Shown in pieces: positions 11,087 to 24,563 of a stretch of DNA of 64,000 nt. Origin of the DNA: Pseudoxanthomonas daejeonensis (lineage in GTDB: Bacteria; Pseudomonadota; Gammaproteobacteria; Xanthomonadales; Xanthomonadaceae). Positions within the stretch are counted from its first letter, which is position 1. The number at the start of each line of letters is the position of its first letter. The translations under genes were made by a program, and so were the position numbers. The notes under the pieces are model-generated. The model was given only the letters and a program-made list of their open reading frames with translations. It was not told the DNA's origin and searched no databases. The stretch covers positions 1 to 64,000 of the forward strand of contig NZ_PDWN01000007.1 in the NCBI RefSeq assembly GCF_010093205.1. Direction: 5' to 3'.

Positions 11087-12145
11087 TCACGCCCCCTGCC
11101 GTGCGCCGATGTCGTACCAAGATCTCGTTCGATTCACGATCATGACCACGGAAAGCATCACAGGGACTTCGATCAGCACGCCGACGACGGTCGCGAGCGC
11201 TGCACCGGACTGAACTCCGAACAGGCCAACCGCTGTCGCCACCGCGAGCTCGAAGAAGTTGCTGGCGCCAATAAGCGCTGACGGCCCGGCGATTTCGTGG
11301 GCGACACCGAAGCGGCGGTTTAGCAGGTAGGCAAGTCCGGAATTGAAGTAGACCTGGATCAGGATCGGCACCGCAAGAATGGCGATGACCAATGGCTGCT
11401 CAACGATCTGTTTCCCCTGGAATCCGAACAACAACACCAGCATGGCCAGCAATGCCAGAAGCGAGACCGGTGCAAGCATTGCCAACACCGCGCCCAGACG
11501 CTTCGGGCCGCCGTGCGCCAGTAGCCAACGCCGCAACAGCGCGGCTACCGCAACTGGCACCAGGATGTAGAGACCCACCGACAGCGCAAGCGTGTCCCAC
11601 GGCACCACGATTGAAGAAAGGCCAAGCAGAAGCGCTACGAGGGGGGCGAACGCCACGACCATGATCGCGTCGTTGAGCGCGACCTGGCTCAGGGTGAAGT
11701 TTGCATTTCCGCGGCACAGGTGGCTCCATACGAAGACCATTGCCGTGCACGGCGCCGCGGCGAGCAGGATCAGCCCTGCCATGTACGAATCAACCTGGTC
11801 AGCGGGCAGCCAGTCGATGAAGACGTGGCGCAGGAAGATCCATCCCAGCAGCGCCATTGAAAACGGCTTCACCGCCCAATTGATGAACAGCGTCACGCCG
11901 ATGCCGCGCCAGTGGCGGCTGACTTGGCGCATCGCGCCGAAGTCGACCTTCATCAGCATCGGCACGATCATCAACCAGACCAGTACTGCGACCGGCAGGT
12001 TGATCTTCGCGACCTCCACCGAACCCAATCGCGCGAACGCATCCGGGAACCAGTGACCGAGGGCGGTACCGGCAAGGATGCACAGGCCGACCCAAGCGGT
12101 CAGGTAGCGCTCAAAGAACGGCATGCGCCGCGCTGGGTCAGCCAT
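11087..12145 (-). CDS. acr3: ACR3-family arsenite efflux permease
   Basis: This inner-membrane carrier extrudes arsenite. The 352-residue protein has about ten membrane segments. It keeps the ACR3 hallmarks: the essential Cys133 in LLAAAPCTAMVFVWSH and Glu299 in SALIGASNFFELAVA. It is ACR3 rather than the larger ArsB type. The start ATG at 12145 lies 8 bases inside the arsC coding region, so translation is probably coupled. It is the last gene of the arsR-arsI-arsC-acr3 operon. Confidence 0.95.
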   Translation of the reverse strand: MADPARRMPFFERYLTAWVGLCILAGTALGHWFPDAFARLGSVEVAKINLPVAVLVWLMIVPMLMKVDFGAMRQVSRHWRGIGVTLFINWAVKPFSMALLGWIFLRHVFIDWLPADQVDSYMAGLILLAAAPCTAMVFVWSHLCRGNANFTLSQVALNDAIMVVAFAPLVALLLGLSSIVVPWDTLALSVGLYILVPVAVAALLRRWLLAHGGPKRLGAVLAMLAPVSLLALLAMLVLLFGFQGKQIVEQPLVIAILAVPILIQVYFNSGLAYLLNRRFGVAHEIAGPSALIGASNFFELAVATAVGLFGVQSGAALATVVGVLIEVPVMLSVVMIVNRTRSWYDIGARQGA

Positions 12146-12665
12146 GGCCAACGGTCTCGTCTTCCGGTTGTACGAAACCGATCCGGTCGAGCGATTCCTT
12201 GAGCGCAGCGCGGTCATTCCACACCTGCGCCGGCAACGCCAGCAGAGCGAGCAGGCGTGCTTTGACGACCCGGTGCGCCTGGGCGAAGGCCTCGCGCTTG
12301 TCCTGCTCGGTGCCCTCTATCGCAGCAGGGTCGGGCAGGCCCCAGTGCGTCCGCAGGAAGTCGCCAAAAACTACCGGACAGGTTTCCGTGGCCGCCGAAT
12401 CGCAGACAGTGACCACCAGATCGATAGGTGCGGCGCCATCGGTGGCGAACTCGTCCCACGACTTGCTACGCAGCCCTGCGGCTGCAATGCCGTCGGATGC
12501 GAGCTGCTGGAGTGCGAATGGGTTAACCCGCCCGGCAGGCCGGCTGCCTGCGCTGAAGACCTCGAAGCGATGACCCGCCCATGCGCGCAGCGTGGCTTCG
12601 GCCAGAACGCTACGCGCGGAATTGCCAGTACATAGGAACAGGACGCGGATGCGATTCGGCTCCAT
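12138..12665 (-). CDS. arsC: Arsenate reductase ArsC, low-molecular-weight phosphatase type
   Basis: This enzyme reduces arsenate to arsenite, the substrate of Acr3. The 175-residue protein has the phosphatase-like P-loop with Cys12 and Arg18 (FLCTGNSARS). Two further cysteines at 88 and 96 (VTVCDSAATETCPVVF) fit the thiol-relay mechanism of this family, and the active-site region GLPDPA follows. The ATG at 12665 is preferred to a longer frame that runs into arsI. The gene lies 7 bases after arsI and overlaps acr3 by 8 bases. Confidence 0.93.
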   Translation of the reverse strand: MEPNRIRVLFLCTGNSARSVLAEATLRAWAGHRFEVFSAGSRPAGRVNPFALQQLASDGIAAAGLRSKSWDEFATDGAAPIDLVVTVCDSAATETCPVVFGDFLRTHWGLPDPAAIEGTEQDKREAFAQAHRVVKARLLALLALPAQVWNDRAALKESLDRIGFVQPEDETVGHG

Positions 12666-20734: not shown

Positions 20735-20834
20735 CTGCAGGAGCGGACTCCAGCCCGCGAAGCCGACGCCAGTTGCACGGCCAGCGCCTCCGGGATTCCG
20801 GCACCTTCGGCTTCGCGGCCATGCCCGCGCCTAC
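20735..20834 (-). repeat. Paired REP (BIME-like) element overlapping the asnB stop codon
   Basis: Reading the minus strand, the element starts GTAGGCGCGGGCATGGCC at 20834 and contains a 12-bp inverted repeat (TCGGCTTCGCGG on plus near 20808 with CCGCGAAGCCGA near 20754). It ends with a reverse head (CTGCAGGAGCGG on plus near 20733). The TAG stop of asnB is bases 2-4 of the GTAG head. Confidence 0.5.
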
Positions 20835-22525
20835 GAGGCGTGCGCCTGCTCGTGCACGCCGGCCACCGCGCGCCCGGAGGGATCGGCCATCTTGGCGAAG
20901 CTCGCGTCCCAGGCGATCGCCGCCGGCGAAGAACACGCGATCGACTTGCCCCCCGGCACGGTCTCGGCCGCCGCGGGGCTGGGATAGAAGCGTTCGAACA
21001 CGCTGCGGTAGAAGTAGGCTTCCTTGGTCTGCGGCGGGTTTAGCGGGAAGCGCTTGTCGGCCGCGGCCAGTTCGCGATCCGACACCTGCGCTTCGGCATG
21101 CGCCTTCAACCCGTCGATCCAGCCGTAGCCCACGCCGTCGCTGAACTGCTCCTTCTGCCGCCACAGGATCTGCTCGGGCAGGTAGCCGTCGAAGGCCTGG
21201 CGCAGCACGCCCTTCTCCATGCGCTGGGCGTCGTTGCGGGACCTGTCGACCATCTTGTACCTGGCATCCATGCGCATGGCCACGTCGAGGAACTCGCGAT
21301 CCAGGAACGGCACGCGCGGCTCCACGCCCCAGGCCATCATCGACTTGTTCGCACGCAGGCAATCGAAGTTGTTGAGCGCGTCGAGCTTGCGGATCAGCTC
21401 CTCGTGGAACTCGCGCGCGTTCGGCGCCTTGTGGAAGTACAGGTAGCCGCCGAAGATCTCGTCGCTGCCCTCGCCCGAAAGCACCATCTTCACACCCATC
21501 GCCTTGATCCGGCGCGCCAGCAGGAACATCGGCGTCGACGCGCGGATGGTGGTGACGTCGTAGGTCTCGATATGGCGGATCACCTCGGGCAACGCATCCA
21601 GGCCCTCTTCGAAGGTGTACTCGTAGCCGTGGTGCACGGTTCCCAGCGCTTCGGCCGCGACCTCGGCCGCGGCCAGGTCCGGGGAGCCCTTCAGGCCGAT
21701 GGCGAACGAGTGCAGGCGCGGCCACCAGGCTTCCGTCCTGTCGCCATCCTCGATGCGATGCCGTGCGTAGCGCGCGGCCACCGCCGCGACCAGCGACGAA
21801 TCCAGCCCGCCGGAAAGCAGCACGCCATAGGGCACGTCGGTCATCAGCTGGCGGTGCACCGCCGCCTCGAAGGCCTCGCGCAGTTCCTGCGACGAAACCT
21901 CCACGCCCTCGACGTCGGCGTAGTGCCGCCAGGGCGCGTGGTAGTAGCGGGTCAACTCGCCGGTCGCGGAGTCATACCAGTGGCCCGGCGGGAACTGCGC
22001 CACGTCGGCGCATTCGTCCACCAGCGACTTCATCTCCGAAGCCACGCGCAGCCGGCCTTCCCTGTCGTGGCCCCAGTACAGCGGCACCACGCCGATCGGG
22101 TCGCGGGCGATGATCGCGCGGCCCTTGCTTTTGTCCCACAGCGCGAAGGCGAAGATGCCATTGAGCCGGTTGAGGAACGACGCCGGTTCGTCCTCGCGGT
22201 ACAGCGCATTGATCACCTCGCAGTCGGAGGCGGTCTGGAACGCATACGGCTCCTTCAACTGGCCCTTCAGCGGCACGTGGTTGTAGATCTCGCCGTTGAC
22301 CGCCAACGCAAGCTGTCCATCCTCCGACAACAGCGGCTGGGAACCGCCGGCGGGATCGACGATGGCCAGGCGCTCGTGCACCAGGATCGCGCCGGCGTCC
22401 ACGTACACGCCACTCCAGTCCGGTCCGCGATGGCGCTGGCGCTGCGACAGATCCAGCGACTGTCGGCGCAGTCCCTGCAGGTCGTCGCCCGGTTGCAGGC
22501 CGAAGATGCCGAAGATCGAACACAT
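20831..22525 (-). CDS. asnB: Asparagine synthase B (glutamine-hydrolysing)
   Basis: AsnB makes asparagine from aspartate, ATP and glutamine. The 564-residue protein begins MCSIFGIFG; Cys2 is the glutaminase nucleophile after Met removal. The glutaminase domain has QRHRGPDWSG and LAVNGEIYNH. The synthetase domain has the pyrophosphate loop (GVLLSGGLDSSLVA) and VLSGEGSDEIFGGY. A good ribosome binding site (AGGAG, 8 bases before ATG) precedes the start. The upstream region carries an Asn-rich leader peptide and a terminator (22602-22750), indicating attenuation by Asn-tRNA supply. The C-terminal end reads into a REP element. Confidence 0.96.
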   Translation of the reverse strand: MCSIFGIFGLQPGDDLQGLRRQSLDLSQRQRHRGPDWSGVYVDAGAILVHERLAIVDPAGGSQPLLSEDGQLALAVNGEIYNHVPLKGQLKEPYAFQTASDCEVINALYREDEPASFLNRLNGIFAFALWDKSKGRAIIARDPIGVVPLYWGHDREGRLRVASEMKSLVDECADVAQFPPGHWYDSATGELTRYYHAPWRHYADVEGVEVSSQELREAFEAAVHRQLMTDVPYGVLLSGGLDSSLVAAVAARYARHRIEDGDRTEAWWPRLHSFAIGLKGSPDLAAAEVAAEALGTVHHGYEYTFEEGLDALPEVIRHIETYDVTTIRASTPMFLLARRIKAMGVKMVLSGEGSDEIFGGYLYFHKAPNAREFHEELIRKLDALNNFDCLRANKSMMAWGVEPRVPFLDREFLDVAMRMDARYKMVDRSRNDAQRMEKGVLRQAFDGYLPEQILWRQKEQFSDGVGYGWIDGLKAHAEAQVSDRELAAADKRFPLNPPQTKEAYFYRSVFERFYPSPAAAETVPGGKSIACSSPAAIAWDASFAKMADPSGRAVAGVHEQAHAS

Positions 22526-22601
22526 GGGGAAAGCTCCTGGGTCTGGGTGGTGTTACGGAATCGGACCTCTGATGCGGCCATGGCGGACGCAAGCCGGGCA
22601 T

Positions 22602-22631
22602 AAAAAAACCCGCATCGGCCGATGCGGGTTT
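22602..22631 (-). terminator. Intrinsic terminator (attenuator) in the asnB leader
   Basis: On the minus strand the perfect palindrome 22606-22631 (core CCCGCATCGG/CCGATGCGGG) ends in seven U (A7 at 22602-22608 on plus). It lies between the leader-peptide stop (22655) and the asnB start (22525), 77 bases before the gene. It can only be an attenuator for asnB, since no gene other than the leader ends here on this strand. Confidence 0.9.
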
Positions 22632-22654
22632 CGTGGTGACCGGGCTGTGGTGCC

Positions 22655-22750
22655 TTATGCCTGGTCGCGCCCCCGCATCGTTCGCGCACGGTTATTCGCC
22701 GCATTGTTGCGGTTCGAATTGGCCGGGTTTGCGCGCAGGGCGGAAGACAT
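22655..22750 (-). CDS. Asparagine-rich leader peptide of asnB
   Basis: The 31-codon ORF (ATG at 22750, TAA at 22655) has seven Asn codons among codons 8-20 (peptide NPANSNRNNAANN), four AAC and three AAT. It stops 24 bases before the terminator stem. The composition is far from random for high-GC DNA, where AAU/AAC codons are scarce. Its product is probably not functional as a protein; translation serves to sense charged tRNA-Asn. No strong Shine-Dalgarno sequence is seen. Confidence 0.82.
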   Translation of the reverse strand: MSSALRANPANSNRNNAANNRARTMRGRDQA

Positions 22751-22889
22751 GGGCCGACACTAACCCGCACCGCGGACGGGCCGCAACCGTTGCAGGGGCA
22801 ACTGACAATGCGCTCACGCCGTGCGGCGAATACTCCGCCGACCGCGCGCCATCGTCTTGCCCGCGCTCCGCCGTCACCGGAGATCCGCC

Positions 22890-24563
22890 TTGCCCGACAC
22901 TACCCAACGCCTCACCCGCACCGCGCAGGTGGTCGCCCGCCTTGCCCGCCACCGTCGCGTGCTGACCGGCCTGGACTGGACCCACGCCCCACCCGCCGAG
23001 CCGTCGATCGCCGATGCGTCCGGCATCGCCGAAGCCCAGGCGTTCGCCGCGGACCTGGAATCCCTCGGTCCGGCTTTCATCAAGCTGGGGCAATCGCTTT
23101 CCACACGCCCCGACCTGGTGCCACCGGCCTACATCGACGCGCTGGACCGCATCCAGGATGAAGTCGCACCGATCGATACCGCAGTGGTCGAGAAGATCAT
23201 CGAGGAAGAGCTTGGCGCGAAACTCAGCCGGCTGTTCGCTTCGTTCGATCCGGTTCCGCTGGCAGCCGCTTCGCTCGCGCAGGTCCATCGCGCGGTGCTG
23301 CGCGACGGTCGCGAGGTCGCGGTGAAAGTGCAGCGGCCGGGCATGGACGCGGCGATCCGCCTGGACCTGGAGGTCCTGTCGGGACTGGCCGGTACCGCCG
23401 ATGCGCTCACCGAGACCGGGCGCCGCCTGCACTTCGCCGGCTGGATCGCCGAGTTCCGCAAGATCCTCCTGCTGGAGCTGGACTACCGCCGCGAGGCCGA
23501 AAACCTGGATCGCTTCCGCGAGCGGCTGTCGGCCTACCCGCAGCTGTACGTACCTGCGCCGGTGTGGGGACTGAGCACCGCGCGCGTGCTGACCATGGAA
23601 CTGGTCCACGGCAGCAAGGTCACCGCGGTCTCGGGGCTGCGCCGTACCGAACTGGACCTGGCCACGCCGGCCGCCGAGCTGATGCGCGCCTACCTGGACC
23701 AGGTGTTCGTGCACGGCGACATCCATGCCGATCCGCACCCGGGCAACGTGATGCTGTGCGACGACGGACGGCTGGCGCTCATCGACCTGGGCATGGTCGC
23801 CCAGGTCCCGCCGCGCATGCGCGAACGCCTGCTCAAGTTGCTGTTCGCCGCGGTGGACGCGCGCGGCGAAGACGTGGCGCGCGAACTGGTAGCGATCGGT
23901 ACGCGCCTGGAGCAGTTCGACGATGCCGCCTTCAACCGCGACACCGGCCAGCTGGTCGCGCGCTACGCCACCGGCGGGCGGCGCACCTCCGAGGGCCGGC
24001 TGCTGCTGGAGCTGGTCGGCACCGCTGCCGAACACGGCCTGCGCGTGCCTGCCGAGATCAGCCTGCTCGGCAAGACCCTGCTCAACCTCGAGCGGGTCGC
24101 CAATGCGCTGGACCCGGAGATGGATGTCCGTCGCCTGGTCGAATCGCACCTGGAATCGATCATGCGCGCGCAGCTGCGCGGCTCCTTCTCCAGCGCGAAC
24201 CTCGCCAGCGAACTGCTCGAGGTGCAGGGCCTGCTGCGCGACGCTCCGCGCAAGATTTCCGACACGCTGTCGCTGCTGGCGGAGAACCGCCTGCAGGTGC
24301 GGCTGGATGGCCTGGAGAACTCGCGGCTGATGGAGAACATGCAGAAGATCGCCAACCGCATCGCTGCCTCGGTGGTCACCGCGGCGCTGCTGATGTCCTC
24401 GGCGATGCTGATGCGGATCGAAACGCCGGCTCGCCTGTTCGGCTATCCGGCGCTGGCCGTGGTGCTGTTTCTGATCGCGGTAGCGCTGGGCCTGACGATC
24501 GCTGTGAGCGCCTTGCTTTACGACCGCAAGGCGCGTCCGAACGAGCAGCACGGACCGCACTAG
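22890..24563 (+). CDS. ubiB: UbiB-family (ADCK/ABC1) atypical kinase
   Basis: UbiB proteins are atypical kinase-like ATPases needed for ubiquinone synthesis. The 557-residue protein has the family KxGQ motif (FIKLGQSLSTRPDLVP), the Ala-rich loop with SLAQVHRAVL, the lysine AVKVQRPGM, the catalytic/metal segment VHGDIHADPHPGNVML and LIDLGMV. Two membrane helices lie at the C-terminus. The TTG at 22890 is chosen because GGAG lies 7 bases upstream and the conserved region follows; a GTG at 22821 would add 23 residues. It is divergent from asnB. Confidence 0.88.
   Translation: MPDTTQRLTRTAQVVARLARHRRVLTGLDWTHAPPAEPSIADASGIAEAQAFAADLESLGPAFIKLGQSLSTRPDLVPPAYIDALDRIQDEVAPIDTAVVEKIIEEELGAKLSRLFASFDPVPLAAASLAQVHRAVLRDGREVAVKVQRPGMDAAIRLDLEVLSGLAGTADALTETGRRLHFAGWIAEFRKILLLELDYRREAENLDRFRERLSAYPQLYVPAPVWGLSTARVLTMELVHGSKVTAVSGLRRTELDLATPAAELMRAYLDQVFVHGDIHADPHPGNVMLCDDGRLALIDLGMVAQVPPRMRERLLKLLFAAVDARGEDVARELVAIGTRLEQFDDAAFNRDTGQLVARYATGGRRTSEGRLLLELVGTAAEHGLRVPAEISLLGKTLLNLERVANALDPEMDVRRLVESHLESIMRAQLRGSFSSANLASELLEVQGLLRDAPRKISDTLSLLAENRLQVRLDGLENSRLMENMQKIANRIAASVVTAALLMSSAMLMRIETPARLFGYPALAVVLFLIAVALGLTIAVSALLYDRKARPNEQHGPH

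Follow-up and report, generated by a model that had tools for sequence, protein, structure and literature searches.

In Pseudoxanthomonas daejeonensis, a short open reading frame crowded with asparagine codons lies ahead of asnB, which encodes a glutamine-hydrolysing asparagine synthetase, and an intrinsic terminator stands between the two. This arrangement raises the question of whether translation of the short frame decides if asnB is transcribed. We examined the locus within a stretch of 64,000 nucleotides (hereafter the window). The asnB product matches PRK09431 with 866.7 bits (cut-off 499), and a UbiB-like ABC1 kinase ORF diverges from the locus, starting at 22821 on the plus strand. Judged by sequence comparison, the asnB leader is very probably a ribosome-mediated transcription attenuator that reads the supply of charged tRNA-Asn.

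Anatomy of the asnB leader

A preliminary description of this locus had reported a 31-codon ORF with seven Asn codons within 13 codons, and this proves correct base for base: asparagine occupies leader codons 8, 11, 13, 15, 16, 19, and 20 (Table 1). Among 5000 dinucleotide shuffles of the 300 nt 5′ of asnB, none reached seven Asn in 13 codons (the maximum was five), and when both strands of the window were divided into 1274 tiles of 300 nt, only two tiles did so, both over the leader ORF. Together, the shuffles and the tiles indicate that the Asn density does not arise by chance. The next-densest tile, a single one with five Asn, lies antisense within another ORF. A second Asn-dense short ORF of the window occurs at 11379-11570 on the plus strand, antisense inside the minus-strand ORF 11087-12217, which may encode an ACR3-type transporter.

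The intrinsic terminator (22602-22631, minus strand) is built on an 11 bp stem, AAACCCGCATC / GATGCGGGTTT (22631-22606), closed by a GGCC loop and separated by 76 nt from the asnB ATG, which bears out the perfect palindrome with a run of seven U that had been described there. The nine-base segment noted within leader codons 24-27 is likewise the exact reverse complement of the 5′ arm of this terminator. Folding had been proposed as a check, and the leader region is indeed more stable than its shuffles (z -3.17, with none of 200 equally stable). In this leader, 10 nt separate the end of the last Asn codon from segment 2, and the stop codon follows the segment 2 core after 14 nt. The 1:2 pairing is not part of the minimum-energy fold of the window leader, which pairs the equivalent bases locally instead.

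Table 1. Features of the asnB locus, in window coordinates
Feature	Coordinates	Strand	Remarks
-35 promoter box TTGCGG	22781..22786	-	36 nt before leader ATG
-10 promoter box TAGTGT	22757..22762	-	18 nt after -35 box; less uniform than -35 box
Leader peptide ORF	22655..22750	-	MSSALRANPANSNRNNAANNRARTMRGRDQA; 31 codons, 7 Asn codons; stop TAA 22657-22655
Asn control codons	22691..22729	-	codons 8-20: N P A N S N R N N A A N N
Segment 1, CCGCA	22708..22712	-	within Asn run (codons 13-15); can pair with TGCGG of segment 2
Segment 2, CGATGCGGG	22672..22680	-	codons 24-27; exact complement of segment 3
Segment 3, CCCGCATCG	22620..22628	-	5′ arm of terminator
Segment 4, CGATGCGGG	22609..22617	-	3′ arm of terminator
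U7 tract of intrinsic terminator	22602..22608	-	seven T
Shine-Dalgarno AGGAG of asnB	22534..22538	-	SD-like 4-mer before 139/148 asnB starts
asnB, glutamine-hydrolysing asparagine synthetase	20831..22525	-	564 aa; ATG at 22525

In the mechanism that we propose, RNA polymerase would start at or beside the leader AUG, and a ribosome would follow it over the Asn-rich ORF. When Asn-tRNA(Asn) is plentiful, the ribosome would reach the stop codon and cover segment 2, the 3:4 terminator would form, and transcription would end about 150 nt from its start. When Asn-tRNA(Asn) is short, the ribosome would stall in the Asn run, segments 2 and 3 would pair ahead of the synthesis of segment 4, no terminator would form, and asnB would be transcribed.

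Conservation in the Lysobacterales

We assembled two sets of relatives. From the first, the best 80 asnB loci were kept; in the order-wide set, AsnB was found at E 1e-100 in 216 of 299 genomes, and 150 loci were fetched (120, and 30 more in a second fetch for which 31 further genomes were searched and 30 gave asnB loci). Taking N13 as the largest Asn count in any 13-codon stretch of an ORF, we counted a leader where N13 was at least 3 and a strong stem lay within 60 nt of the stop. Such an Asn-rich ORF with a terminator precedes asnB in 113 of 119 loci from three families (f1, 65/67; f2, 3/3; f12, 45/49), compared with 0/14 in f9, 1/15 in f7, 0/1 in f10, and 0/1 in f4. NCBI taxonomy places Pseudoxanthomonas in the Lysobacteraceae and Rhodanobacter in the Rhodanobacteraceae, both within the order Lysobacterales, and f1 and f12 are presumably these two families. 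With N13 of at least 5, the counts become 56/67 (f1), 3/3 (f2), 38/49 (f12), 0/14 (f9), and 0/15 (f7). All six loci without a leader in f1 and f12 (L217, L219, L220, L224, L228, and L229) carry distant AsnB copies of 63-65% identity, which argues that the leader goes with a single type of asnB. The leader-bearing genomes of the order-wide set cover 17 genera of f1 and 16 of f12; in the best-80 set, the leader was found in Pseudoxanthomonas, Xanthomonas, Stenotrophomonas, Luteimonas, Thermomonas, Lysobacter, Rhodanobacter, Dyella, and Fulvimonas.

Outside the order, AsnB reached E 1e-120 or better in only one of 226 genomes of the class (the source genome and two of its family being excluded), so the class makes no useful control and the 35 non-order loci among the best 80 were used instead. 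None of these 35 reaches an N13 of 5, and eight reach 3 or 4, so that an N13 of 3 alone is not telling. Some of the leaders are themselves weak in Asn, with an N13 of only 3 (L011, L020, L075, L120, L131, L143, L195, and L206). Shuffled upstream regions never reached an N13 of 5 (0/1840). The 46 loci that we grouped as being from the Lysobacterales or carrying a close AsnB comprise 36 with at least five Asn in 13 codons, six with three or four, and four with none or one. The last four are L067, a 61% relative, and three loci labeled as other groups, L017, L018, and L041. These three have an asnB that is 73-80% identical, on contigs labeled Holophagales, Rhodococcus, and Deltaproteobacteria, with no leader in the 500 nt upstream, and reflect either horizontal transfer or mislabeled contigs.

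Alignment of the regions upstream of asnB, which the preliminary description had put forward as a check, gave a short Asn-rich ORF, a stop soon after segment 2, a terminator, and pairing of 2:3 and 3:4 in all three families, so that most of the predictions compared were borne out; the absence of Asn codons, stop, or terminator from related leaders, which it had named as evidence that would count against an attenuator, was not what the comparison gave. For closer comparison we used 148 leaders (the window, 41 loci of the best-80 set, L094-L206, and L222; 156 before identical 260-nt ends were removed). These loci are leader-bearing by choice and include near-duplicates from the same species, so their rates characterize the element rather than how often it occurs.

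Anchored on the CCCGC core, all five core pairs of 3:4 are standard in 148/148 loci and those of 2:3 in 131/148, compared with 150 of 788 control windows of 47 nt further upstream (19%) in which five standard pairs occurred anywhere. In the other 17 loci, the 2:3 core is mismatched in its best register. Segment 2 also keeps its position: its core ends 7-9 nt before the stop in 103/148 loci as against 536 of 38363 control placings (1.4%), and exactly 8 nt before it in 107 of 143 loci that passed a pairing score under which one core mismatch could pass (131/148 being the stricter count). The distance from the last Asn codon to the core is 5, 11, or 14 nt in 123/148 loci. As far as spacing goes, these distances fit a ribosome that covers segment 2 when at the stop and leaves it free when in the control codons. 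In the 32 loci with the 5-nt spacing, the last Asn codon lies so close to segment 2 that a ribosome on it would reach that segment, and the stall would have to come at an earlier Asn codon.

In four loci, segment 2 has changed together with the terminator arm. L148 and L150 carry GCAGG / CCTGC / GCAGG as segments 2, 3, and 4, a joint change of all three, and L030 and L151 carry GCAGG / CCTGC / GCGGG, where 3:4 is held by a G-U pair. The compensatory changes of the two genera may go back to one common event. We also observed that in L148 (G243) and L150 (G278) DNA behind the terminator sets the leader stop 344 and 425 nt away from asnB, so coupling to asnB is uncertain in these two.

These changes bear on a different explanation of the locus, in which the ORF encodes a small protein with a function of its own, and ends in its own terminator, and asnB would be transcribed from a separate downstream promoter. 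The ORF does have promoter-like boxes of its own and a strong terminator behind it, and the distance from the segment 4 core to the asnB ATG, with a median of 65 nt and more than 200 nt in a few loci, would give room for a second promoter. A small protein would leave unexplained why segment 2 follows the terminator arm in the four loci above and why, judged by eye, the N terminus of the peptide varies among genera while the Asn codons, segment 2, and the position of the stop are kept. In 6/148 loci, moreover, the segment 4 core and the asnB ATG are less than 40 nt apart (31-38 nt), which leaves little or no space for a second promoter. We consider this explanation very improbable.

Within leader types, for which Xanthomonadaceae-type and Rhodanobacteraceae-type are our own labels, pairing is well kept and covariation is uneven. 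The first alignment, A4, holds 43 Xanthomonadaceae-type leaders (the window and 42 of L094-L137, leaving out L133 as a duplicate and L131 as another type). Here the share of paired cells is 98.6% for helix 1:2, 97.4% for 3:4, and 93.7% for 2:3. The structure of 1:2, inner hairpin, and 3:4 is 91.2% paired compared with 29-46% when slid, and the 2:3 helix falls to 18-51% when slid. Covariation of 2:3 in this set is weak because segment 2 is nearly invariant; 15 to 55 of 500 shuffles scored as high, depending on the measure. The second alignment, A5, holds 17 of the 45 f12 leaders, picked by type. Changes on both sides of a pair affect 15 cells of these Rhodanobacteraceae-type leaders, every one within the terminator stem, a number reached by 0/500 shuffles, whereas two of five covariation measures for the structure were not above shuffles (216 and 402 of 500). 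Their 2:3 helix is 100% paired and almost invariant, and covariation of 2:3 is absent from these 17 leaders. Of the covarying segments 2:3:4 that the preliminary description had proposed to look for, joint changes are seen in the Rhodanobacteraceae-type 3:4 stem and in the triple change of L148 and L150; covariation of 2:3 is thin or absent within types.

A covariance model of the Xanthomonadaceae type, R1, was run against 200 genomes of the order. Among the matches listed, those above 42 bits fall only at asnB (28 forward and one overlapping antisense), a result that sets aside a recurrence of the element ahead of a different gene in these genomes. Since R1 is of one type and misses many other leaders, these matches are no census. 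Away from asnB, the best R1 matches listed reach at most 36.7 bits. One at G032:C8:79323-79424 resembles places in G013:C136, G081:C1, and G040:C9, all of genus g2 (34.9-36.7 bits) and perhaps one recurrent place, and others lie in GatB-bearing genomes. We take these weaker matches for generic terminators, although those of g2 are possibly one recurrent terminator or another attenuator.

Leader start, codon choice, and folding around a ribosome

The promoter-like boxes ahead of the leader (22757-22786) lie outside 22602-22750, the range that the preliminary description covered, and proved informative. The transcript is predicted to start at, or one or two bases from, the leader A22750. Across relatives, TTGC occurs 35-38 nt before an in-frame start codon in 143/148 loci (ATG in 141), as found by a search over 33-40 nt in which the placing nearest 36.5 was chosen. 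Shuffled 45-mers carried TTGC at 33-40 in 225 of 7150 cases, and this background of 3% is somewhat too low because the shuffles used one start per locus and the real search several in-frame starts. A hexamer with A at position 2 and T at position 6, ending 5-10 nt before an in-frame ATG, is present in 95/148 loci. Only 22 of 143 leader starts have an SD-like 4-mer (it is absent in 121), compared with 139/148 asnB starts. Together, the TTGC spacing and the missing SD-like 4-mer suggest that transcripts begin at the AUG and that the leader is probably translated from leaderless mRNA. Of the 22 leaders with an SD-like 4-mer, 19 have it inside a -10-like [CT]AGGAT, a box that may itself be a Shine-Dalgarno sequence, which makes a leaderless start less secure for these 19. 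A leaderless start would provide a system in which to ask how a ribosome loads early enough to stay coupled to the polymerase.

In the five majority-Asn columns of the 43 Xanthomonadaceae-type leaders, AAC or AAT stands in 29, 40, 30, 41, and 40 of 43, a better sign of translation than entropy by codon position, which is alike at the three positions in A4 (0.55, 0.51, and 0.54 bits) and so argues neither for nor against translation. The leader stop is UAG in 131/148 loci compared with 4/40 asnB genes, of which 31/40 end in UGA, and AAU makes up 48% of Asn codons in leaders compared with 16% in the same 40 asnB genes. One could speculate that the enrichment of AAU and UAG tunes ribosome dwell, with common descent contributing.

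Such tuning could also serve an attenuator that answers to something other than Asn-tRNA, be it the general speed of translation or a leader RNA or peptide acting in trans, as for trpL of Sinorhizobium meliloti. Termination would yield a leader RNA of about 150 nt, and PMC7298713 describes an S. meliloti RNA, rnTrpL, that begins with the trpL ATG, as we propose for the asnB leader, and acts in trans. The trpL attenuator differs in that it concerns Trp, belongs to an alphaproteobacterium, and encodes a 14-aa peptide. A sensor of speed would need no Asn codons, and yet these precede an Asn synthetase gene in three families; we give a different deciding signal very little chance. Sensing of Asn-tRNA(Asn) charging remains the reading that we favor.

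We then folded the 148 leaders with parts of the RNA masked by a ribosome. With the ribosome at the stop, 3:4 folds in 148/148. When the ribosome instead sits on an Asn codon 9 nt or more ahead of the core and the RNA extends to segment 3, 2:3 folds in 131/148; once segment 4 is included at equilibrium, 3:4 is preferred in 118/148 despite the stalled ribosome, so the model needs the co-transcriptional order of synthesis. When RNA to segment 3 was folded free of ribosomes, 2:3 formed in 101 loci, segment 2 was held upstream in 40, and neither occurred in 7. Given 2:3 in 101 of the 148, a classical 1:2 protector is not general, and these folds suggest that what keeps asnB off may be a terminating ribosome on segment 2 and not 1:2. 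These minimum-energy folds would predict that losing leader initiation should raise, not lower, asnB expression in many species. The trp attenuator behaves otherwise on such a loss. If the RNA stops shortly behind the leader ORF and short of segment 3, the segment 2 core is for the most part paired upstream among the loci listed. The more than 100 natural leader variants, a few of them compensatory, are material for a clean genetic test.

Known regulators and the route to Asn-tRNA

The his, thr, leu, trp, phe, and ilv operons of proteobacteria are controlled by ribosome-mediated attenuators. The asnB leader shares with them a short ORF carrying codons for the end product, a biosynthetic gene directly downstream, mutually exclusive 2:3 and 3:4 pairing, and a stop close behind segment 2. 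It is unlike them in its Asn codons, its probable leaderless start, a 1:2 pairing that is not general, and its prevalent UAG stop. T-boxes ahead of Asn genes in the Firmicutes likewise sense the charging of tRNA-Asn, but there the RNA binds the tRNA directly, without translation. No T-box match appeared at E up to 10 in the window (22000-23500, 1501 bases) or at E up to 0.1 in nine relatives.

Searches of Rfam gave no score above gathering in the same part of the window, where Leu_leader came closest (18.2 bits, gathering 50), or in nine relatives (Thr_leader, 30.9 of 55, in L152; Trp_leader, 30.6 of 41, in L222), and a known Rfam leader or sRNA family is ruled out on these scores. The best sub-threshold matches at the leader in the window, L152, and L222 are all to leader families. 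A comparative study of proteobacterial attenuators was reportedly published by Vitreschak and others in 2004. Neither asnB nor asparagine appears in the main text of PMC1262725, PMC2965389, or PMC4833913, and the part of PMC1183508 that treats stop-codon release at the trp and his attenuators leaves asparagine unmentioned. The preliminary description knew of no described ribosome-mediated Asn attenuator, which agrees with our Rfam searches and with our literature searches, where no paper listed dealt with an Asn leader attenuator in its title or the opening of its abstract; an earlier mention is still possible. If the mechanism is true, asparagine would join the amino acids known to be sensed by translation-coupled attenuation. 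For annotation, a regulated leader probably precedes asnB in Xanthomonas, Stenotrophomonas, Lysobacter, Dyella, and Rhodanobacter, with a prematurely ended transcript of at least about 150 nt.

The source genome encodes AsnRS (627.4 bits) with no match to GatB, so that charging of tRNA-Asn should depend on free Asn. Across 121 genomes of the order (taken as G000-G120), AsnB occurs in 71, GatB in 41 (39 over cut-off), both in 0, and neither in 9, where AsnB means the window type at E 1e-100, AsnA and more distant AsnB falling outside the search. Both states occur within families f4 and f12 and within genus g42, whose AsnB-bearing members carry the leader (L162, L164, and L166). AsnRS is over its cut-off in 114/121 genomes. 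It had no match in three AsnB-bearing genomes, G079, G092, and G102, and the asnB loci of G079 (L233) and G092 (L223) are without a leader. Free Asn is thus the expected source of Asn-tRNA where the attenuator exists, as the model requires. GatCAB can replace asparagine synthetase in bacteria that have it together with AsnRS and GlnRS. PMC4206432 describes GatCAB alongside these two enzymes in other bacteria. In the Lysobacterales, the alternation of AsnB and GatB ties the regulator to the route by which Asn-tRNA is formed.

A fuller account would join these strands: an Asn attenuator in three Lysobacterales families, of a specificity undescribed within our searches, that initiates on leaderless mRNA, uses AAU and UAG to hold the ribosome longer on the control codons and over segment 2, and exists only where free Asn made by AsnB feeds Asn-tRNA, because the GatCAB lineages of the order lack this asnB. 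Taken with all of its parts, this account seems to us about evenly poised between right and wrong.

One further locus stands apart. In L222 (f7, G082), asnB is preceded by a short Asn-containing leader, MFAIYNTINTTNNRLLRSAGSF, whose segment 2 and terminator fit the scheme; judged by eye, its promoter is TTGACA and its 5′ UTR some 28 nt long. It is the one Asn-leader candidate outside the three families and is possibly an independent or ancestral Asn attenuator.
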